Shown here piece by piece: positions 5,131 through 24,865 of a DNA stretch of 37,154 nucleotides. The stretch's first letter is position 1; each line of letters starts with the position of its first letter. The notes below the pieces were generated by a model. The model did not search any database and had not been told where the DNA came from. It saw only the letters and a list, made by a program, of their open reading frames with translations. Both the position numbers and the translations under genes were made by a program. The stretch is from an uncultured Clostridia bacterium (GTDB lineage Bacteria; Bacillota; Clostridia; Oscillospirales; Ruminococcaceae). The stretch lies in NCBI GenBank assembly GCA_947629335.1, contig CANRDI010000019.1:1-37154 (forward strand), read 5' to 3'.

Positions 5131-6144
5131 ATGATAATAACCCGCACCCCATTTCGCATGTCGTTTTTTGGCGGCGGAACAGATATGGAAGAATTTTTCA
5201 AAGAGTACGGCGGAGCAGTGTTGTCAACGACGTTCGATAAATATTGCTATGTGAATGTTCGTCATCTGCCAAGATTTTTCGAGTATTCGACTGAGATATC
5301 ATATTCAAAAACGGAACGAGTAACAGACGTCGATCAGATCGAGCATCCGGCAATAAGAAACGCAATGAAAATGCTGGATATGTACGAGATAAGACTTACA
5401 TACGAGGGAGATCTTCCCGCGCGTTCTGGACTTGGCACAAGCAGTTCGTTCGCGGTAGGAATGTTAAACGCATTCTACGCTCTAAAGGGAAAGTATGCAA
5501 GCAAGAAAAAGCTCGCCGATGATGCAATTTACCTTGAAAGAGTTCTTTGCAGCGAGGCGGGCGGTTGGCAGGATCAGATAGCGGCGTCTTTTGGCGGGTT
5601 CAACCGAATAAATTTCAGCGCTGACGGATACGAAGTAATACCGCTTATCATCTCACCCGAACGTAAGAAAAAATTGAACGATAATTTGCTTATGTTCTTT
5701 ACGGGATTTACAAGACTTTCGTCGGACGTCCAGAAAACAAACGCGCTTTCGCGCAAGGATAAGACTGCGCAGCTAAAAGAAATGTATTCGCTTGTGGACG
5801 ACGCGGAAAAAATTCTTGTGGATAAATATTCGGACATTGACGATTTCGGAAGATTGCTTGACCACACTTGGAAGCTGAAACGCCAGACAGGCTCCGCAAT
5901 TTCCACGGATAGTATAGACGAATTGTACGCAAAAGGAATTGCCGCGGGAGCGCTCGGCGGAAAGCTGTTAGGCGCGGGCGGCGGAGGATTTTTAATATTT
6001 TACGTTCAGCCCGAATACAAAGAATCTGTTATGAAAGCTATGAGCGATCTGCTGTATATCCCGTTTGAGTTTGAAAACAGCGGGACGCGAGTTATTCATT
6101 ATACACCTGAGGACTATGTTCCGAGAGAGGAAAAAATATCGTAA
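5131..6144 (+). CDS. hddA: D-glycero-alpha-D-manno-heptose-7-phosphate kinase (GHMP family)
   Basis: Phosphorylates D-glycero-D-manno-heptose-7-phosphate at the anomeric carbon, giving the alpha-1,7-bisphosphate for the GDP-heptose pathway. It is a GHMP kinase: the N-terminus RTPFRMSFFGGGTDM is typical of HddA-like sugar kinases, the ATP-binding motif is PARSGLGTSSSFAVG (about 96-110), and the C-terminal glycine loop is LGAGGGGFLIFY (about 283-294). The motif AGGWQDQIAA seen in this subfamily is present. Length 337 is normal. The ribosome binding site AAGGA lies about 8 bases before the ATG. The stop overlaps the next start (TAATG). The direct neighbours supply every other step of the pathway, which makes heptose a much better substrate guess than galactose or fucose. 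Confidence 0.88.
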   Translation: MIITRTPFRMSFFGGGTDMEEFFKEYGGAVLSTTFDKYCYVNVRHLPRFFEYSTEISYSKTERVTDVDQIEHPAIRNAMKMLDMYEIRLTYEGDLPARSGLGTSSSFAVGMLNAFYALKGKYASKKKLADDAIYLERVLCSEAGGWQDQIAASFGGFNRINFSADGYEVIPLIISPERKKKLNDNLLMFFTGFTRLSSDVQKTNALSRKDKTAQLKEMYSLVDDAEKILVDKYSDIDDFGRLLDHTWKLKRQTGSAISTDSIDELYAKGIAAGALGGKLLGAGGGGFLIFYVQPEYKESVMKAMSDLLYIPFEFENSGTRVIHYTPEDYVPREEKIS

Positions 6145-7391
6145 TGAAAACAGTCATAATGTCGGGCGGGCGCGGAACGAGAATTTCCGAATTATTTCCG
6201 GATATCCCAAAGCCGCTTATCCCCATTTGCGGAAAGCCCGTTTTAGAGCACGAGATAGAGTGCCTGCGCGAACAGGGCTTTACGGATATAATTCTGACAG
6301 TAAGTCATATGTCGGAACGGATGATTGAATATTTCGGCAATGGCGATAAATTCGGAGTGCATATCGAGTATTTTGTTGAGGAAAAGCCGCTTGGAAACGC
6401 GGGCGCATTGTTCAGACTTAAGGACAAGCTGACCGAGGATTTCCTGCTTTTAAATGCGGATTCGGTGTTCAATATAGACTTCAACCGTTTTGTGGAGTTC
6501 CATAAAAATCATAAAGCATTGGCGACATTGTTCACCCACCCGAACGACCACCCATACGACAGCGGACTTATAATTGCAGACAATGACAAGTCCGTGCAAA
6601 AATGGCTTGCGAAAGAGGACGAACGTCCGAAATATTACAAAAATCGCGTTAATGCAGGACTTCACATCATTTCTCCAAGGCTTTTGGAAAATGAAATTGA
6701 CCTTCCGAAAATCGATCTTGACAGGCATTTGCTGAAACCGCTTGCGGGAACGGGAAAAATGTTCTGCTATGACAGTCCGGAATATGTAAAGGACATGGGT
6801 ACGCCAGAACGATTTAAGGCAGTGACAAGGGATTTTGAAAGCGGCAAGGTGTTTGCGAGAAATCTAAAAAACAAGCAAAAAGCAATTTTCCTTGACCGCG
6901 ACGGAACTATAAACAAGTATGTGGGTTTTCTAAGAAATGTAGATGATTTCGAGCTTTTGCCGACAGTTTGCGAAGCAATAAAGTTAATAAACAATTCGGG
7001 GTATCTTGCGGTGGTAGTGACGAACCAACCCGTTATAGCGCGCGGAGAAGTGACATATGCCGAGCTGAACGAGATCCACAATAAAATGGAAACACTTCTC
7101 GGCGCAGACGGAGCGTATCTTGACGGTATCTACTTCTGCCCGCATCATCCCGACAGCGGATTTGAGGGAGAGGTAAAAGAACTGAAATTCGATTGCGATT
7201 GCAGAAAGCCGAAGCCCGGAATGTTATTGAAAGCTGCCGAGAACTTTAATATTGACCTTACGCAGTCGTGGATGATAGGCGACGGCGATAACGACAAAGC
7301 CGCAGGCGAAGCGGCAGGGTGCAGAACAAAAATTATACCGACAGACGGAGAGCTGCTGAGGGCGGTAAAGGAAATTCTGGAGGATACATAA
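6144..7391 (+). CDS. Bifunctional heptose-1-phosphate guanylyltransferase / heptose-1,7-bisphosphate 7-phosphatase (HddC-GmhB fusion)
   Basis: Two enzymes in one chain. Residues 1-235 are a sugar-nucleotidyltransferase with the signature MSGGRGTRISELFPDIPKP, LLLNADSVF and a C-terminal DMGTPERF. This matches HddC, which couples heptose-1-phosphate to GMP. Residues 247-415 are a HAD-IIIA phosphatase like GmhB: DRDGTIN (catalytic D251 and D253), VVTNQP, a zinc loop with C332, H334/H335, C351 and C353, CRKPKPGM, and IGDGDNDKAAG. The linker near 236-246 is short and charged. The fusion would place phosphate removal at C7 directly beside guanylylation at C1. The gene overlaps hddA and gmhA by one base at each end (TAATG). 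In a few systems these two activities are separate genes, so the substrate remains an inference from context. Confidence 0.88.
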   Translation: MKTVIMSGGRGTRISELFPDIPKPLIPICGKPVLEHEIECLREQGFTDIILTVSHMSERMIEYFGNGDKFGVHIEYFVEEKPLGNAGALFRLKDKLTEDFLLLNADSVFNIDFNRFVEFHKNHKALATLFTHPNDHPYDSGLIIADNDKSVQKWLAKEDERPKYYKNRVNAGLHIISPRLLENEIDLPKIDLDRHLLKPLAGTGKMFCYDSPEYVKDMGTPERFKAVTRDFESGKVFARNLKNKQKAIFLDRDGTINKYVGFLRNVDDFELLPTVCEAIKLINNSGYLAVVVTNQPVIARGEVTYAELNEIHNKMETLLGADGAYLDGIYFCPHHPDSGFEGEVKELKFDCDCRKPKPGMLLKAAENFNIDLTQSWMIGDGDNDKAAGEAAGCRTKIIPTDGELLRAVKEILEDT

Positions 7392-8044
7392 TGACCGAGA
7401 AAGTTAAATATCAACTTGATTTGCTTATTGAAAGATATCCGAAATTGAGTGTTTGTAAAGATGACATTGCGGCGGCATATGAGCTGATGAAAAGCTGCTA
7501 TAACAACAATGGGAAGCTGCTTGTGGCAGGAAACGGCGGTAGCGCGGCAGACGCTGAGCATATTGTCGGCGAGCTGATGAAAGGCTTTAAAAAGCCGAGA
7601 AAGCTGTCAAAAGAATATGCGGACAAGCTCATATCGGTCAATTCCGAGCTTGGAAAGGTGCTTGCGGATAATTTGCAGGGAGCATTGCCTGCTATAGCTT
7701 TGGACGGACATCCGGGGCTTACGACCGCATATATGAATGACTGCGAACCGCTTTTGTGCTTTGCTCAGCAGGTAAACGGCTACGGAAACGCGGGCGATGT
7801 TTTCCTTGGCATTTCGACTTCGGGCAACAGCAAGAATGTGCTATACGCCGCAGTTGCAGCCAAAGCGAAAGGCATGAAAGTAATAGGACTTACGGGACAG
7901 AAAGACAGCAAACTTTCGGCAATCGCCGATGTTTGCATAAAAGTCCCCGAAACCGAGACTTATATGATCCAGGAACTACATTTGCCTGTCTATCATTGTT
8001 TGTGTCTTATGCTGGAAGAAAAATTTTTTGAGGAAGAGAGTTAA
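7391..8044 (+). CDS. gmhA: D-sedoheptulose-7-phosphate isomerase
   Basis: First committed step of bacterial heptose synthesis: sedoheptulose-7-phosphate to D-glycero-D-manno-heptose-7-phosphate. It is a SIS-domain protein of 217 residues with the GmhA signature AGNGGSAADAEHIVGELM (about 46-63), a second phosphate-binding loop STSGNSKNVL, and a C-terminal ETYMIQELHLPVYH block carrying the metal-binding His seen in GmhA. Start ATG 7391 overlaps the preceding stop and has GGAGG 7 bases upstream. An in-frame extension to 7319 is open but runs inside the fusion gene. The gene order hddA, hddC-gmhB, gmhA gives a complete path to GDP-D-glycero-alpha-D-manno-heptose. Confidence 0.93.
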   Translation: MTEKVKYQLDLLIERYPKLSVCKDDIAAAYELMKSCYNNNGKLLVAGNGGSAADAEHIVGELMKGFKKPRKLSKEYADKLISVNSELGKVLADNLQGALPAIALDGHPGLTTAYMNDCEPLLCFAQQVNGYGNAGDVFLGISTSGNSKNVLYAAVAAKAKGMKVIGLTGQKDSKLSAIADVCIKVPETETYMIQELHLPVYHCLCLMLEEKFFEEES

Positions 8045-10515: not shown

Positions 10516-11364
10516 ATGGCATCTGATGAAATAAAGATTGCTCAACAAACATCTTTGGAGCTGTTAAAGGTATTTGTAGAAATATGCAATAAGTATAACT
10601 TGAGATATTACATCGGAGGCGGAACAATGCTCGGTGCAATACGACATAAGGGCTTTATTCCGTGGGATGATGATGTAGATATCGATATGCCGAGGGAGGA
10701 TTATGAGAAACTTATAGAAATCTCAGATGAAGCCTTGAAGGATTATCCAAACTATGAAATAAAAAACTATCATAAGAACAATGTAATTTCAATAATCACA
10801 AGTCTTGTCGATAACAGTAAAAAAATAATATACGCAAGAGGAACTATCGCTGAGCGAGCGTATTATTTATGGATAGATATAGCCCCCGTTGACGGGATAC
10901 CGGACAATCCTTTTTTAAGAAAAATACACTTGCTTAAATTAAGTGTATTAAAAATATGTTACAATTTTTCGATATTTAAATATGGTGGTATACTACCTAA
11001 TAGTATGAAAACGGGTAAAAGGTCATTTATAAAAAAGATAGGAGTGTTTTTAGCAACACATCTGCCCGTAGAAAAGGTTTTTAAATATAAAGTATGGATA
11101 CCGAAATTTGAGAAAGAATTAAAAAAATATTCATTTTATGATTGCAAAATGGCAGGCACATTAGCGTCACATCATGGCAGAAAGAGTATTTTCCCAACAG
11201 AATGGTATGGAAAAGGCACGAAATATCAATTTGAAGATATAGAAGTCATTGGCGTGGATAATTATGATGCATGGCTTACACAACTATATGGTGACTATAT
11301 GAAATTACCTGATGAAGCACACCAAGTTAGTCACTATTTTGAACTTATAGACGAGGAAAAATAA
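10516..11364 (+). CDS. LicD-family phosphotransferase
   Basis: LicD-fold nucleotidyltransferase-like protein (PF04991). Known members move a phospho-alcohol from a CDP donor to a glycan: phosphocholine in LicD proteins, ribitol-phosphate in the related human fukutin and FKRP. The defining motif GGGTMLGAIRHKGFIPWDDDVDIDM is at residues 34-58, with the metal-binding DDDVDID aspartates intact. The C-terminal half is basic and holds a SHHGRKSIFPTEWYGKGTKYQFE segment typical of the family. 282 residues is normal. AAGGGAG precedes the ATG by about 9 bases. The next three genes look like a CDP-polyol pathway and none resembles choline uptake or choline kinase, so polyol-phosphate transfer is the favoured role. 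Confidence 0.87.
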   Translation: MASDEIKIAQQTSLELLKVFVEICNKYNLRYYIGGGTMLGAIRHKGFIPWDDDVDIDMPREDYEKLIEISDEALKDYPNYEIKNYHKNNVISIITSLVDNSKKIIYARGTIAERAYYLWIDIAPVDGIPDNPFLRKIHLLKLSVLKICYNFSIFKYGGILPNSMKTGKRSFIKKIGVFLATHLPVEKVFKYKVWIPKFEKELKKYSFYDCKMAGTLASHHGRKSIFPTEWYGKGTKYQFEDIEVIGVDNYDAWLTQLYGDYMKLPDEAHQVSHYFELIDEEK

Positions 11365-11366
11365 GT

Positions 11367-12059
11367 ATGAACATAGCCTTGATACTTTCGGGCGGAACAG
11401 GCAGCCGAATGGGGCTTAATGTTCCAAAACAATATCTTAAGTTTAACGGTAAACCTATAATGAGTTATTCGTTGGAAGCTTTTGATTGTAATTCGCTTGT
11501 TGACGGTATTGTTATCGTTGCGGAAAAACAATGGAGAAATGAGATAGATAAATGGCTGAAAGAATATGACATAAAGAAATTTTTATGCTATGCCGACCCC
11601 GGAGAAACGCGACAGTATTCTATAATAAGCGGTCTAAAAGAAATAGAAAGACTTGGCGGTGCAGATAAAGTTATAATTCATGATGCGGCAAGACCGCTTG
11701 TTTCTGAGAAACTAATCACATCTTGTATTGAGGGTCTTGAAGATTGTGATGGAGTTATGCCTGTTTTGCCTGCAAAGGATACATTTTATATTTTAGATAA
11801 CAACAATATGGTTTCAAAGCTTTTGCCGCGTTCGCTTTTAGCTGCCGGACAAGCCCCCGAAGCGTTTGATTATAGAAAATATCACACTGCAAATATGTCG
11901 CTTTCAAGGAAAGAATTATTAGAGATAAACGGCAGTTCGGAACTTGCTGTTAAATGCGGAATGAAAATAAAAACAATTGCCGGAGATGAAAGAAACATAA
12001 AGGTTACAACTCCAAACGATCTGCTTCTTTTAGAGGCGTATATGAAGGAGGAAAAATGA
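11367..12059 (+). CDS. CTP:polyol-phosphate cytidylyltransferase, IspD/TarI family
   Basis: Activates an alcohol phosphate as its CDP derivative. The signature is LSGGTGSRMGLNVPKQYLKFNGKPI, then VIIHDAARPLVSEKLI, GQAPEAFDY and a C-terminal NIKVTTPNDLLLLEAYM. All are shared by IspD (methylerythritol phosphate) and TarI (ribitol-5-phosphate). 230 residues fits both. Its place between a LicD transferase and a polyol-phosphate-type dehydrogenase argues for a polyol-phosphate such as ribitol-, arabinitol- or xylitol-phosphate rather than isoprenoid synthesis. That is inference. It starts two bases after the LicD stop and overlaps the dehydrogenase start by four bases (ATGA). Confidence 0.85.
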   Translation: MNIALILSGGTGSRMGLNVPKQYLKFNGKPIMSYSLEAFDCNSLVDGIVIVAEKQWRNEIDKWLKEYDIKKFLCYADPGETRQYSIISGLKEIERLGGADKVIIHDAARPLVSEKLITSCIEGLEDCDGVMPVLPAKDTFYILDNNNMVSKLLPRSLLAAGQAPEAFDYRKYHTANMSLSRKELLEINGSSELAVKCGMKIKTIAGDERNIKVTTPNDLLLLEAYMKEEK

Positions 12060-13093
12060 AAGCGCTGGTCCTTGAAGATGTATCAAAATTAGTTTATAAA
12101 GACGTTCCCGACCCGATTATAAAACCGGGCGAGGTGCTTCTGAAAATAAAAGCGTGCGGGATATGTTCAAGCGATATACCGAGAATATTTACAACAGGTA
12201 CATATCATTTTCCGACCATTCCCGGACACGAGTTTTCGGGAGAGATAATCGACTGCGCGCCTGACGTTGACAATTCTCTCATAGGAAAAAGAGCCGTTGT
12301 ATTTCCGCTTGTGCCTTGCGGAAAGTGTCCTTCATGCGCTGCAAAAGAATATGCTCGATGCTCCGATTACAATTACTTCGGTTCGAGATGTGACGGCGCT
12401 TTTGCGGAATACATTTCGGTGCCTGTCTGGAATATTGTCAGATTTTCAAATAAAATTCCATATACTACTGCCGCAATGTGCGAACCTGCTTCTGTCGCTA
12501 AACATTGTGCGGACAGGGGGAAAATCAACGAGGGAGATACAGTAACGGTAGTCGGCACAGGCACAATAGGATATATTTCGGCGCTATGGGCAAAAACTAT
12601 GGGCGCAAAAAAAGTTATAATTGTGGGACGAAACAAAAGCAAGCTTGAATTTTCAAAAGAACTCGGTCTTGATTATACAATAAATACTTCAGAAGATAAT
12701 TTTTTTGAAAGTTATATGAAAATAACGGGCGGCGAGGGTTCAGACGTGGTTCTGGAATGCGTCGGAAGCAATGCGGCAATAAAAAGCTCGGTAAAGTTTG
12801 CAAAAAAAGGCGGGAGAATTGTTCTTGCGGGAAATCCCGAAGGAGATATAAAGCTTGAAAAAAATGTATACTGGAAAATTCTAAGAAATGAGCTTACTGT
12901 TATGGGGACATGGAATTCAAGCTATAATTCCGAAGTGAATAATTGGAATGAAGTTATAACAGCCTTGGAAAATCATAAACTTGATATTTCAAAATTGGTA
13001 ACGCACACTTTTCGGTTGGATGAATATGAAAAAGCATTTAAAATTTTAAAAGATAAGACTGAATTTTCGGTAAAAGTAATGTTTGCGGAATAA
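12056..13093 (+). CDS. Zinc-dependent MDR dehydrogenase, galactitol-1-phosphate 5-dehydrogenase-like
   Basis: Medium-chain dehydrogenase of 345 residues. The catalytic zinc site is GICSSD (C37) with GHEFSG (H58, E59). The structural zinc site has C88, C91, C94 and C102 (PCGKCPSC...RC). The cofactor loop is VVGTGTIG near 165-172. Family-specific stretches (SDIPRIFTTGTY, YNYFGSRCDGAFAEYI, WKILRNELTVMGTW) are close to GatD, which oxidises a polyol phosphate to a ketose phosphate. Here it probably runs in reverse, reducing a ketose phosphate to the polyol phosphate used by the upstream cytidylyltransferase, as TarJ does for ribitol. It overlaps the previous gene by four bases, with AAGGAGG 4 bases before the start. 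The exact polyol is unknown. Confidence 0.85.
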   Translation: MKALVLEDVSKLVYKDVPDPIIKPGEVLLKIKACGICSSDIPRIFTTGTYHFPTIPGHEFSGEIIDCAPDVDNSLIGKRAVVFPLVPCGKCPSCAAKEYARCSDYNYFGSRCDGAFAEYISVPVWNIVRFSNKIPYTTAAMCEPASVAKHCADRGKINEGDTVTVVGTGTIGYISALWAKTMGAKKVIIVGRNKSKLEFSKELGLDYTINTSEDNFFESYMKITGGEGSDVVLECVGSNAAIKSSVKFAKKGGRIVLAGNPEGDIKLEKNVYWKILRNELTVMGTWNSSYNSEVNNWNEVITALENHKLDISKLVTHTFRLDEYEKAFKILKDKTEFSVKVMFAE

Positions 13094-13103
13094 GGAGTAT
13101 CCG

Positions 13104-13781
13104 ATGAAAAAATCAAAGATTTCCGCGTCAATGATGTGTGCGGATCTTGTACATTTAAAGCAGACAATCACGATATTTGAGAGCGAAAAGATAGATTATT
13201 TACATATTGACGTTATGGACGGAGAATTTGTTCCGAATTTCGGCTTGGGGACAGATTATATAAGAGGATTGAGGGATTTAACAGACATTCCGCTTGACAT
13301 TCATTTGATGATAACTTCTCCGGAATACAAATATAAATGGCTGGGAATAAAATCAAGCGATATGGTTTCAATACATTACGAAAGCACGTCCCAGATACAA
13401 AGAGCGCTTGACCGGCTTTCGGAATATGGCTGTAAGAAATTTCTTGCAATAAATCCTGCAACGCCGATATATGTTCTTGAGGAAGTTCTTGACTACATCG
13501 ACGGGATAAATCTTTTAATGGTAAACCCCGGCTTTGCGGGTCAGAAGATAGTTCCGAGTACCATCAAAAAAGCCGAGCGGCTGGTTAAATTTCTGAGAGA
13601 CTGCGGCAAGGAAGATATTGAGATCGAGGTTGACGGTAACATAACATTTGAAAATGCAAAAATACTCAGAGCCGTAGGGGCGAGTGTGTTCGTCGCGGGA
13701 ACGTCAAGTATTTTTAAGGGTAAGCTTGAGGAGTATGATAACAATATTTTAAAGCTCAGGGAAAATATATCTTTAAGGTGA
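13104..13781 (+). CDS. Ribulose-phosphate / allulose-6-phosphate 3-epimerase family protein
   Basis: TIM-barrel metal-dependent epimerase inverting C3 of a ketose phosphate. The metal and catalytic motifs are present: HIDVMDGEFVPN (H34, D36, D39), IHLMI, VNPGFAGQ and IEVDGN. The N-terminus (ASMMCADL) and the PGFAGQ loop look nearer to AlsE (allulose-6-phosphate) than to the housekeeping Rpe, so pentulose and hexulose phosphates are both possible. Start ATG 13104 has AAGGAG 6 bases upstream and lies 10 bases after the dehydrogenase stop. An open extension to 13083 is not used. In this cassette it probably provides the ketose phosphate that the dehydrogenase reduces, making a less usual polyol. 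Confidence 0.84.
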   Translation: MKKSKISASMMCADLVHLKQTITIFESEKIDYLHIDVMDGEFVPNFGLGTDYIRGLRDLTDIPLDIHLMITSPEYKYKWLGIKSSDMVSIHYESTSQIQRALDRLSEYGCKKFLAINPATPIYVLEEVLDYIDGINLLMVNPGFAGQKIVPSTIKKAERLVKFLRDCGKEDIEIEVDGNITFENAKILRAVGASVFVAGTSSIFKGKLEEYDNNILKLRENISLR

Positions 13782-14880: not shown

Positions 14881-15948
14881 ATGATAAAAGATTTTATAAA
14901 AAAGCATCAAGGACTATATCGTGTTGCAAAAGTAATTCAAAATATAAATAATTCCGAGTTTAAAAAGTTGTTAGACGGTTATCTGACAAATGCTCCTTCG
15001 GAATTATCATTACTTATTCACAATGCGGAATATATATCAAAAAACTCACCTGTATATCTTATTGAATACGGAGTTAAAGATGTTTGTGACAGCGGTTTTT
15101 TTGCGCTGTTAAGGCATACGATCAAGTATTTGCCTTTTGCCGACAGTTTAGGGCTTGTTCCGATTATAAATTGGGGTTCTAAAACTTTTTATTATGAAAA
15201 AGCTTTAAGCAATAAAGAGACAAATGTCTTTTTATATTATTTTATGCCGGTATCAGCGTCGGTAAGTTTAGAAGAAACTCCGTATATAATTGCTTCTCAA
15301 AAGGATTTTGACAGGTTTTCATCTACTAAAAAAATATCATACCTTGTAAATGATAAAGATGTGCGATTATTTGGAGAGATATATAAAAAATACATAAAGC
15401 TGAATGATGAAGTCGAAAATTATATAGATGAAAATGTACACAAAATGTTGTTAAACAAAAAAGTACTCGGAGTACATATCAGAGGCACGGATTTTTCTCA
15501 GAACTGGGCAAATCATCCCAAAATTGTAACGGTTGACGAGTATTTGGCAAAGTCGATAGATATTTTTGAAAGCGGAGAGTATGACGGGATTTTTCTGGCA
15601 ACAGATGATATAAATGCATTAAATAAGTTCAAAAATGAATTCGGTGGTAAACTTTTATTTTACGATGATGTTTTTCGTACTGAAAACGATATAGGACCGC
15701 ATGAGACTGAAAACGACAGAAACTTACATCATTATAAACTCGGATTAGAGGTTTTACGGGACGCCTATACGCTTGCTAACTGCAAAAGCCTTGTGTGCGG
15801 ATTGTCTCAGGTGTCCTTTGCCGCGCAGTATATAAATTATGCTCTCGATCGTAGTTTTGATACCTATGCGGTTATCGATCATGGACTTAATTCAAAAAAA
15901 TCTTTTAAGGAAAGAAAGGCAAAACGTATGTTCAAAAAAGAGAAATAA
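14881..15948 (+). CDS. Fucosyltransferase-like protein (GT23/O-FucT-type HxRGTDF motif)
   Basis: 355-residue protein without transmembrane segments. The recognisable part is LGVHIRGTDFSQNW (HIRGTDF at 199-205), resembling the GDP-binding arginine motif of alpha-1,6- and related fucosyltransferases, followed by GIFLATDD and a C-terminal LVCGLSQVSFAAQY strand like the donor-binding end of those enzymes. The locus makes GDP-L-fucose (gmd and fcl downstream), which supports the call. Weak points: the N-terminal half has no motif I recognise, and the family could use a different GDP-sugar such as GDP-heptose. The ribosome binding site is weak (GAGTGA). Confidence 0.65.
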   Translation: MIKDFIKKHQGLYRVAKVIQNINNSEFKKLLDGYLTNAPSELSLLIHNAEYISKNSPVYLIEYGVKDVCDSGFFALLRHTIKYLPFADSLGLVPIINWGSKTFYYEKALSNKETNVFLYYFMPVSASVSLEETPYIIASQKDFDRFSSTKKISYLVNDKDVRLFGEIYKKYIKLNDEVENYIDENVHKMLLNKKVLGVHIRGTDFSQNWANHPKIVTVDEYLAKSIDIFESGEYDGIFLATDDINALNKFKNEFGGKLLFYDDVFRTENDIGPHETENDRNLHHYKLGLEVLRDAYTLANCKSLVCGLSQVSFAAQYINYALDRSFDTYAVIDHGLNSKKSFKERKAKRMFKKEK

Positions 15949-22877: not shown

Positions 22878-23924
22878 ATGAGAAAGACGGCATTGATAAC
22901 GGGAATTACTGGGCAGGACGGATCCTATTTGGCAGAATTTCTGCTTGATAAAGATTACGAGGTCCATGGTATAACCCGTCGCGCTTCCATTTCAAACACT
23001 GGTCGAATTGACCACATAAAGAATAAACTAGCACTCCATGACGGTGATCTGGCGGACAGTTCGTCGCTTATTCGCATTATCGCTGAGATTCAGCCCGACG
23101 AGATCTACAACTTAGCCGCGCAGAGCCATGTTAAAGTCAGCTTTGATGTTCCGGAGTATTCCGGCGACGTCGACGCACTCGGTACACTGCGAATCCTTGA
23201 AGCCGTCCGCATACTCGGTCTGATGAAGAAAACGAAAATTTATCAAGCATCCACTTCCGAACTTTACGGCAAGGTAGAGGAAGTCCCGCAGTCGGAAACA
23301 ACGCCGTTTCACCCGTATTCGCCTTACGCTGTTGCTAAGCAGTACGGTTTCTGGATTACAAAGGAGTACCGTGAGGCATACGGAATGTTCGCCTGCAACG
23401 GGATACTTTTCAACCATGAATCCGAGCGCAGAGGCGAGAATTTTGTCACCCGAAAGATAACGATTGCAGCGGGACGGATTGCAGAGGGATTGCAGGATCA
23501 TTTAGAGTTGGGCAACCTTGACAGCCTCCGTGATTGGGGCTATGCAAAAGATTACGTTGAATGTATGTGGCTCATTATGCAGCAGGACAAGCCCGATGAT
23601 TTTGTCATCGCAACCGGCATTCAGCATACCGTCCGCGACTTTACTGAACGCGCGTTTGCCTCAAACGGCATACAAATCCGTTGGGAGGGCAAGGGCATAG
23701 ATGAAAAAGGTTATGACGAAAAGACCGGCAAAATGTTCGTTTCGGTTAGTCCGAAATTCTATCGCCCGACCGACGTCGTAAACCTTTTGGGCGACCCGAC
23801 CAAGGCAAAAACTGTCCTCGGTTGGAATCCGCAGAAGACAACCTATGAAGAGCTAATTAGTATAATGTCAACGCATGACCGAGAGCTTGCAAAACGTGAA
23901 AAGGCTGTCTTGGAGGCAAAATAA
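22878..23924 (+). CDS. gmd: GDP-mannose 4,6-dehydratase
   Basis: Converts GDP-D-mannose to GDP-4-keto-6-deoxymannose, the first step to GDP-L-fucose. Extended SDR with the Gmd signature [31 protein letters not shown], the catalytic [17 protein letters not shown] and SPYAVAKQY (YxxxK), [17 protein letters not shown], and [15 protein letters not shown]. 348 residues is the normal length. AGGAGGT stands 7 bases before the ATG, and the stop overlaps the fcl start (TAATG). GDP-mannose would come from manC at the other end of the locus. Because GDP-heptose is also made here, a dual or altered substrate cannot be excluded from sequence. Confidence 0.95.
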
Positions 23925-24865
23925 TGGAAAAAAACTCAAAAATTTATGTCGCGGGACATAGCGGAATGGTCGGTTCGGCGATAGTCAGAGAGCTTGAACG
24001 GCAGGGTTACACGAACATCATCTCCCGCACCCATGCGGAGCTTGATTTGAAAAATCAGGCTGATGTTGAGAAATTCTTTGAAGCTGAAAAACCGGAGTAT
24101 GTATTTTTAGCGGCTGCAAAAGTTGGCGGAATTGTAGCAAATCAGTCGGCGCTTGCGGATTTCATGTATGAAAACATGATTTTAGAGATGAACGTGATTC
24201 ACTCAGCATGGAAAAGCGGTGTTAAAAAGCTTGAATTTCTGGGAAGCAGCTGCATCTATCCGAGAATGGCACCTCAGCCTATGCCCGAAAGCTGCCTTTT
24301 GACGTCTGAACTTGAAAAGACCAACGAAGCCTACGCGCTTGCCAAGATTTCAGGACTTAAATACTGTGAATTCTTAAACCGCCAGTATGGCACTGATTAC
24401 ATATCGGTTATGCCGACTAATCTTTACGGCCCAAATGATAACTATCATCCGGAACACAGTCATGTTTTGCCTGCACTGATTCGTCGTTTCCATGAGGCAA
24501 AAGAGGCAAACGCGTCGTATGTGATCTGTTGGGGTGACGGCAGTCCGCTCCGTGAATTTTTATATGTTGATGATCTCGCAAATCTATGTGTTTTTCTGAT
24601 GAACAATTACAGCGGCAACGAAACAATCAACGCAGGAACAGGCAAGGAACTGACGATTAAAGAGCTTGCTGAACTCGTTGCGAAGGTTATCGGTTATATC
24701 GGAGAAATACGTTGGGACGCATCCCGTCCGAACGGCACGCCAAGGAAACTTCTTGACGTCAGCAAAGCCACAAAGTTAGGTTGGAAATACAAAACAGAAC
24801 TTGAAGATGGAATTCGGCTGGCATATGAAGACTTTTTGCATAATCCCAAAAGGGCGGAGAGGTAA
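23924..24865 (+). CDS. fcl: GDP-L-fucose synthase
   Basis: Bifunctional 3,5-epimerase/4-reductase (also called WcaG) that completes GDP-L-fucose, using NADPH. It has the N-terminal loop VAGHSGMVGSAI, AAAKVGGI, the active-site Ser-Cys in FLGSSCIYP, the YALAKISGLKYCE block (YxxxK), TNLYGPNDNYHPEHSHVLPALIRRFHEAK, and WGDGSPLREFLYVDDLA. The 313 residues agree with the family. It overlaps gmd by one base. It is the last intact gene of the polysaccharide locus. Confidence 0.95.
   Translation: MEKNSKIYVAGHSGMVGSAIVRELERQGYTNIISRTHAELDLKNQADVEKFFEAEKPEYVFLAAAKVGGIVANQSALADFMYENMILEMNVIHSAWKSGVKKLEFLGSSCIYPRMAPQPMPESCLLTSELEKTNEAYALAKISGLKYCEFLNRQYGTDYISVMPTNLYGPNDNYHPEHSHVLPALIRRFHEAKEANASYVICWGDGSPLREFLYVDDLANLCVFLMNNYSGNETINAGTGKELTIKELAELVAKVIGYIGEIRWDASRPNGTPRKLLDVSKATKLGWKYKTELEDGIRLAYEDFLHNPKRAER

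Follow-up and report, generated by a model that had tools for sequence, protein, structure and literature searches.

A candidate CDP-hexitol cassette with its own 3-epimerase in a polysaccharide locus of an uncultured Clostridia bacterium

A four-gene cassette in a polysaccharide locus

The window analysed here, a stretch of 37,154 nucleotides on contig C19 from the 2.48 Mb genome of an uncultured Clostridia bacterium, carries a capsule or exopolysaccharide cluster. Four of its genes encode a LicD-family transferase, an IspD-family cytidylyltransferase (CT), a GatD-like zinc-dependent dehydrogenase (DH) and a 3-epimerase with the Rpe fold (EPI; Table 1). An earlier note on this DNA had described them as one tightly packed cassette, and gene calls, Pfam domains and junctions bear this out: LicD and CT are separated by 2 bases, CT and DH overlap by 4 bases, and DH and EPI are separated by 10 bases. 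The EPI start was taken as the in-frame ATG at 13104, preceded by GGAG; the TTG at 13083 in the list of open reading frames falls inside DH. A function of this cassette in the metabolism of a cytidine diphosphate (CDP)-linked polyol is well supported. Based on sequence comparisons, it probably makes and uses a CDP-hexitol, and from the same comparisons we infer the individual activities, the order in which CT and DH act, the stereochemistry and the acceptor.

Table 1. Genes of the cassette and sequence signatures within them
Feature	Position	Strand	Details
LicD-family transferase	10516..11364	+	282 aa; PF04991 167.8 bits
CT, IspD-family cytidylyltransferase; predicted hexitol-6-phosphate cytidylyltransferase	11367..12059	+	230 aa; PF01128 145.8 bits
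CT signature GQAPE, residues 161-165	11847..11861	+	TarI: GQTPQ
CT signature INGSS, residues 187-191	11925..11939	+	TarI and IspD: TD
DH, GatD-like zinc-dependent dehydrogenase; predicted NADPH-dependent hexulose-6-phosphate reductase	12056..13093	+	345 aa; ADH_N 87.7, ADH_zinc_N 97.4 bits
DH residues 191-192, Gly-Arg	12626..12631	+	Asp there in NAD-type relatives
EPI, Rpe-fold 3-epimerase; predicted fructose-6-phosphate/allulose-6-phosphate 3-epimerase	13104..13781	+	225 aa; Ribul_P_3_epim PF00834 172 bits
EPI beta-8 phosphate loop GTSSIF	13698..13715	+	same length as AlsE GTSGLF; Rpe one residue shorter

The genome also encodes a second LicD (contig C1), a separate, higher-scoring Rpe (C36; 218.8 bits with the Pfam model) and a separate, higher-scoring IspD (C25; 173 bits with the Pfam model), along with two more weak IspD matches (29.6 and 22.6 bits). 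CT is thus not the only IspD of the genome, whereas the earlier note would have taken a sole IspD active on methylerythritol phosphate as speaking against its proposal; EPI is likewise not the genome's sole Rpe. While LicD clears its family cut-off (167.8 versus 22.6 bits for PF04991), CT stays below both NCBIfam cut-offs (ispD TIGR00453, 174.3 of 181.3 bits; ribitol-5-phosphate cytidylyltransferase NF001183, 145.5 of 166), DH below that of GatD (NF007642, 215.5 of 550 bits) and EPI below that of the rpe equivalog (TIGR01163, 193.1 of 212.6). The three enzymes therefore look like specialised paralogues.

Sequence signatures of the three enzymes

In EPI, residues His34, Asp36, His67 and Asp177 are invariant in the alignment. 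EPI shares with E. coli AlsE (D-allulose-6-phosphate 3-epimerase) the Rpe fold, a loop after strand beta-8 that is one residue longer than in Rpe, and the motif PGFAGQ. The additional AlsE residue reportedly fits the enzyme to hexulose-6-phosphate, and deletion of one residue in this loop is reported to have shifted the preference to ribulose-5-phosphate. After removal of two duplicate loci, the long loop was present in 34 of 36 EPI sequences encoded near a DH as well as in L085, the exceptions being the distant L087 and L088. The short loop was found in E. coli Rpe and in all 31 Rpe sequences compared from the family to which the window genome belongs, comprising the 30 top-scoring among 69 matches and the Rpe of the window genome itself. 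AlsE sits in an allose breakdown operon, whereas EPI is proposed to work in the reverse, biosynthetic direction.

In CT, the motif GQ(A/S)P(D/E) is combined with a glycine that replaces the aspartate of TD, and this signature recurs in 34 of 35 distinct CTs adjoining a cassette-type DH. TPQ and TD are kept in two solved TarI structures (4jis and 3f1c), in the IspD of E. coli and that of the window genome, and in seven TarI/TarJ-like pairs of related genomes; upon alignment, none of the seven pairs shows the CT signature. Replacement of Thr and Asp by Ala and Gly could enlarge the CT pocket. Phylogenetic trees gave two changes to this signature, and perhaps two CT lineages converged on the same substrate; a firm claim of double origin was dropped, as a single clade was compatible with the data (p-AU 0.129, with only the first motif masked). 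A CT at L173 (L173:1462-3231; marks GQTPS and TG) combines the Gly with GQTPS; the stretch examined contained neither DH nor EPI, and this CT forms a single-frame fusion with an HMGL-like (aldolase-type) domain.

TarI/TarJ together with TagF/TarL or LicD, which provide CDP-ribitol for teichoic acids and capsules, resemble the cassette in that an IspD-family CT and a medium-chain dehydrogenase/reductase (MDR) supply a CDP-polyol to a phosphotransferase, the product of TarI/TarJ being described as CDP-ribitol (PMC3511166). Standard CDP-ribitol synthesis accompanied by a redundant extra Rpe would follow the same logic, and the best structural match of the CT model (predicted local distance difference test [pLDDT] 93.2) is S. 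aureus TarI (6xhs). Nevertheless, we consider this explanation improbable. CT lacks the GQTPQ and TD found in the seven pairs and the two solved TarI proteins, and neither CT nor DH falls into the lineages of these proteins, DH forming a separate clade outside the TarJ-like clade. No EPI was detected within ~1.5 kb on either side of the seven TarI/TarJ-like pairs, in agreement with the earlier note, which had held that such systems need no epimerase. Moreover, L041 (on the same contig as L059) bears a TarI/TarJ-like pair as well as a CT-DH-EPI trio on 16.7 kb, possibly reflecting two alditols in one organism.

The closest solved structure to DH by sequence is GatD (galactitol-1-phosphate 5-dehydrogenase; PDB 4a2c). 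DH is 33% identical to E. coli GatD (182 bits), compared with at most 28% and 73 bits for TarJ-like sequences, and GatD is an enzyme of hexulose-6-phosphate chemistry. DH differs from GatD by Gly-Arg in place of an aspartate at residue 191, which we take to be the NAD-binding residue of this fold. This Asp is missing in all 35 CT-linked DH sequences (mostly replaced by Gly-Arg or Gly-Asn) and kept in all 14 CT-free ones (12 of 12 at first, 14 of 14 after L065 and L067 were added). The count excluded duplicates, TarJ-like sequences, GatD and two additional L081 paralogues, and L070 and L084 were scored as CT-free although an IspD-type gene (TPQ, TD) is located ~2 kb upstream or on the opposite strand. 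CT-free DH-EPI pairs adjoin genes for mannose/sorbose-family phosphotransferase systems (PTS; L044, L080) or an FGGY kinase (L045). DH and EPI also lie next to PTS genes in Lactobacillus helsingborgensis. This pattern fits NADPH-driven synthesis in the CT-linked group and NAD-driven breakdown in the CT-free group. Independent co-evolution of the residue with CT was dropped as a claim: Fisher's test gave a p of 1.9e-11, but the tree contains two changes, corresponding to one or two independent pairs. The pairs with an NAD-type Asp at PTS genes (L044:4090-8626 and L080:7406-11730) probably serve the breakdown of an imported hexitol via allulose-6-phosphate.

Recurrence of the cassette and its transferases

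We scanned genome contigs with DH as the query and retained the best 79 loci, counting genes as neighbours when on the same strand and within 3.5 kb. EPI and CT both lay near DH at five of five loci with at least 60% DH identity, 19 of 27 at 45-60%, four of nine at 35-45% and none of 38 below 35%, where CT was absent throughout and EPI occurred twice. The arrangement is non-random, as the trio is present at 24 of 32 loci with DH at least 45% identical versus 0 of 38 under 35%. Eight loci of the 45-60% band lacked EPI, namely seven Bacteroidales/Bacteroidia loci and L069 on a 5 kb contig; an apparent CT-DH fusion at L069 was dismissed due to an ambiguous residue at the junction, possibly an assembly gap. 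The context of the Bacteroidales DH orphans was uninformative, with three loci partly scanned, one of which was L082 of Lachnospiraceae.

The trios occur in Clostridia and in one Bacteroides metagenome-assembled genome (MAG), where they neighbour genes for polyol-phosphate transferases of the LicD or TagF type. Among the 24 trios with DH at least 45% identical, 22 have a TagF- or LicD-like gene within 6 kb; the contigs of the remaining two (L064 and L072) measure 3.6 and 4.5 kb. With the queries used, no such gene was found at any of the nine loci of the 35-45% band, nor within 6 kb of L074, L075, L077 and L078 of Lachnospiraceae, where a second EPI subfamily (PGNAGQ, GTTLLF) occurs in the order EPI-CT-DH. 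In the window genome's family, 30 of 148 genomes encode a DH relative (1e-40). Seven of the other 29 were inspected, revealing the trio in four (G143, G035, G055, G005) and DH and EPI without CT in three (G001, G051, G120). The Bacteroides MAG (L063) has LicD, CT, DH and EPI in the same order as the window, with 59, 75, 74 and 78% identity, respectively. Near its cassette lies a second LicD followed, ~1 kb on, by a second CT (TQTPQAF, no TD; L063:15549-18375), perhaps for a different CDP-alcohol.

As a held-out set, we used a class-level DH search at 1e-80, which matched 12 of 391 genomes including the window's own; the other 11 were inspected once the rules had been fixed, and none of them has DNA at 80% identity in common with loci L039-L124 studied before. 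EPI was found in nine, each time with the long loop, and CT in five, each time showing both GQAP and the Gly. Asp was missing from the main DH of the five CT-bearing genomes and present in that of the other six, as expected in all 11 cases. Exceptions in gene content were L198, with CT and DH but no detected EPI, L197, with DH only, and L189, with a second DH relative (30% identity, Asn-Arg).

The LicD stretch GGTMLGA..IPWDDDVDID aligns with the active-site stretch of FKRP (E 1e-5). Animal ISPD and FKRP/FKTN likewise partner an IspD-family CT with LicD-domain transferases, adding CDP-ribitol-derived units to dystroglycan; there, the alditol is ribitol, and the parts of the source considered mention no dedicated 3-epimerase (PMC4873967). 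In L188, one of the held-out genomes, an 861-residue protein joins an IspD domain (residues 10-236; GQAPD, TG) to a Glyphos_transf domain (residues 460-817), and the order on its strand is DH, EPI, CT-TagF fusion. This fusion links CT to polyol-phosphate transfer and, as it adjoins DH and EPI, to these enzymes as well. R. bicirculans (L058) has the gene order TagF-like, CT, DH, TagF-like, EPI (P0005, Glyphos_transf 253 bits), and in L047, a rabbit-gut MAG, CT is immediately preceded by a TagF-like gene (Glyphos_transf 197 bits) that occupies the position of LicD. Cultured carriers of the trio include Ruminococcus bicirculans 80/3 and Roseburia faecis M72.

A proposed route to a CDP-hexitol and its alternatives

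In the proposed pathway, EPI would convert fructose-6-phosphate to D-allulose-6-phosphate, DH would reduce the latter at C2 with NADPH to allitol-6-phosphate or, alternatively, D-altritol-6-phosphate, and CT would form a CDP-hexitol from the hexitol-6-phosphate. LicD would then transfer hexitol phosphate onto the capsule repeat, with a TagF-like enzyme in its role at related loci. A dedicated epimerase would be needed only for allulose-6-phosphate, because the cell's Rpe already links ribulose-5-phosphate and xylulose-5-phosphate. As far as is known, MDR polyol dehydrogenases agree in the C2 configuration of their products (sorbitol/fructose, xylitol/xylulose, ribitol-5-phosphate/ribulose-5-phosphate and galactitol-1-phosphate/tagatose-6-phosphate), with the hydroxyl placed on one and the same side, so that reduction of allulose-6-phosphate should yield allitol-6-phosphate, which corresponds to ribitol-5-phosphate as its all-cis homologue with six carbons. 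By extrapolation from these enzymes, allitol should be the most likely hexitol. A new CDP-allitol (or CDP-D-altritol) pathway, supplying gut Clostridia and at least one Bacteroides with the precursor for LicD-type decorations and TagF-type polymers, is a tentative proposal, for which we claim somewhat less than even confidence.

The main competing explanation is a CDP-pentitol. In this case, EPI would act on ribulose-5-phosphate/xylulose-5-phosphate, DH would produce xylitol-5-phosphate or D-arabinitol-1-phosphate (or reduce CDP-xylulose), and CT would form CDP-xylitol or CDP-arabinitol. Several observations on EPI weigh in its favor and against a hexitol. EPI passes the looser Rpe subfamily model NF004076 (173 of 165) and misses the AlsE equivalog NF007266 (171 of 271); for this enzyme, which the earlier note had called Rpe/AlsE-like, similarity to AlsE is thus upheld by loop length and not by the curated model. 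In a Foldseek search with the EPI model (pLDDT 93.5), Rpe 2fli, with bound xylitol-5-phosphate, ranked first (template-modelling [TM] score 0.90) and AlsE 3ct7 18th (TM score 0.88; 36% identity, a value equalled by Rpe 7b1w). Foldseek cannot separate the two enzymes and was dropped as a discriminator; structural comparison, which the earlier note had suggested, places CT nearest TarI and EPI nearest Rpe, and the fold does not decide the substrate. AlsE and Rpe are, furthermore, promiscuous for each other's substrate.

Other points against a hexitol concern the signatures themselves. With the loop masked, the tree requires a single change in loop length rather than many independent events, and the loop is therefore a family trait; likewise, the DH residue changed only twice on its tree. 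L072 has CT, DH and EPI, yet its CT carries GQTPEC and lacks the Gly, and that the CT signature sites contact the polyol is an assumption based on IspD complexes. Finally, EPI was undetected beside CT and DH in L069, L076, L079, L082 and L198 (the first three with short flanks).

Pneumococcal AbpA/AbpB provide a pentitol precedent: an IspD-type CT and a reductase make CDP-arabinitol, a non-ribitol alditol. This route starts at xylulose-5-phosphate, AbpB reduces CDP-xylulose after CDP transfer, and the route is not known to include an epimerase, setting it apart from the cassette. On balance, we regard a CDP-pentitol as rather unlikely, given the AlsE length of the EPI loop, a DH that is nearer to the hexulose-phosphate enzyme GatD than to TarJ, and the genome's own Rpe, which would make a second one superfluous. 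The earlier note had envisaged a polyol other than ribitol, either pentitol or hexitol. Its CDP-polyol route distinct from TarI/TarJ, with its own epimerase and LicD, stands; xylitol and arabinitol are demoted to rivals because a hexitol is favored by the length of the EPI loop, by the signature of CT and by the resemblance of DH to GatD.

A CDP-hexitol route, if correct, would be a six-carbon analogue of the ribitol-phosphate system and would make a hexitol one of the units from which gut genera like Ruminococcus and Roseburia build their surface. Annotation could then recognise CDP-hexitol cassettes by three short sequence signatures, the labels "Rpe" and "IspD" would be wrong within such capsule loci, and alditol choice by IspD/TarI enzymes, LicD/FKRP and TagF transferases could be tested directly. 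We know of no bacterial polymer that contains allitol or altritol. Word searches of the open-access literature for allitol or altritol phosphates in bacterial polymers returned nothing, and the description of the decoration as new is based on these searches. Arabinitol is described in Hafnia alvei PCM1191, with the responsible genes placed outside the O-antigen cluster (PMC4869667).

Upstream of the cassette, window positions 5131-8044 hold genes of the GDP (guanosine diphosphate)-heptose type, encoding a GHMP kinase, a fusion of nucleotidyltransferase and HAD, and a SIS isomerase. These genes raise the idea of a CDP-heptitol, with EPI acting on sedoheptulose-7-phosphate as a substrate shared with them, and L063 has the same heptose genes beside its cassette. 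Such genes occur at only one of 29 other CT-DH-EPI loci (some on short contigs), and the EPI loop has the length of the hexulose-6-phosphate enzyme, making a CDP-heptitol very improbable. Between the Clostridia window (5131-8044) and the Bacteroides MAG (L063:3073-6623), the GDP-heptose-type genes and a sugar transferase show 68-84% identity, which reflects either a capsule segment common to the two phyla or an error in binning. Further downstream, the product of 14881-15948 is weakly similar to the FUT8/NodZ fucosyltransferase fold (31.6 bits), and genes at 22878-24865, by reading rather than a family scan, look able to make GDP-fucose.

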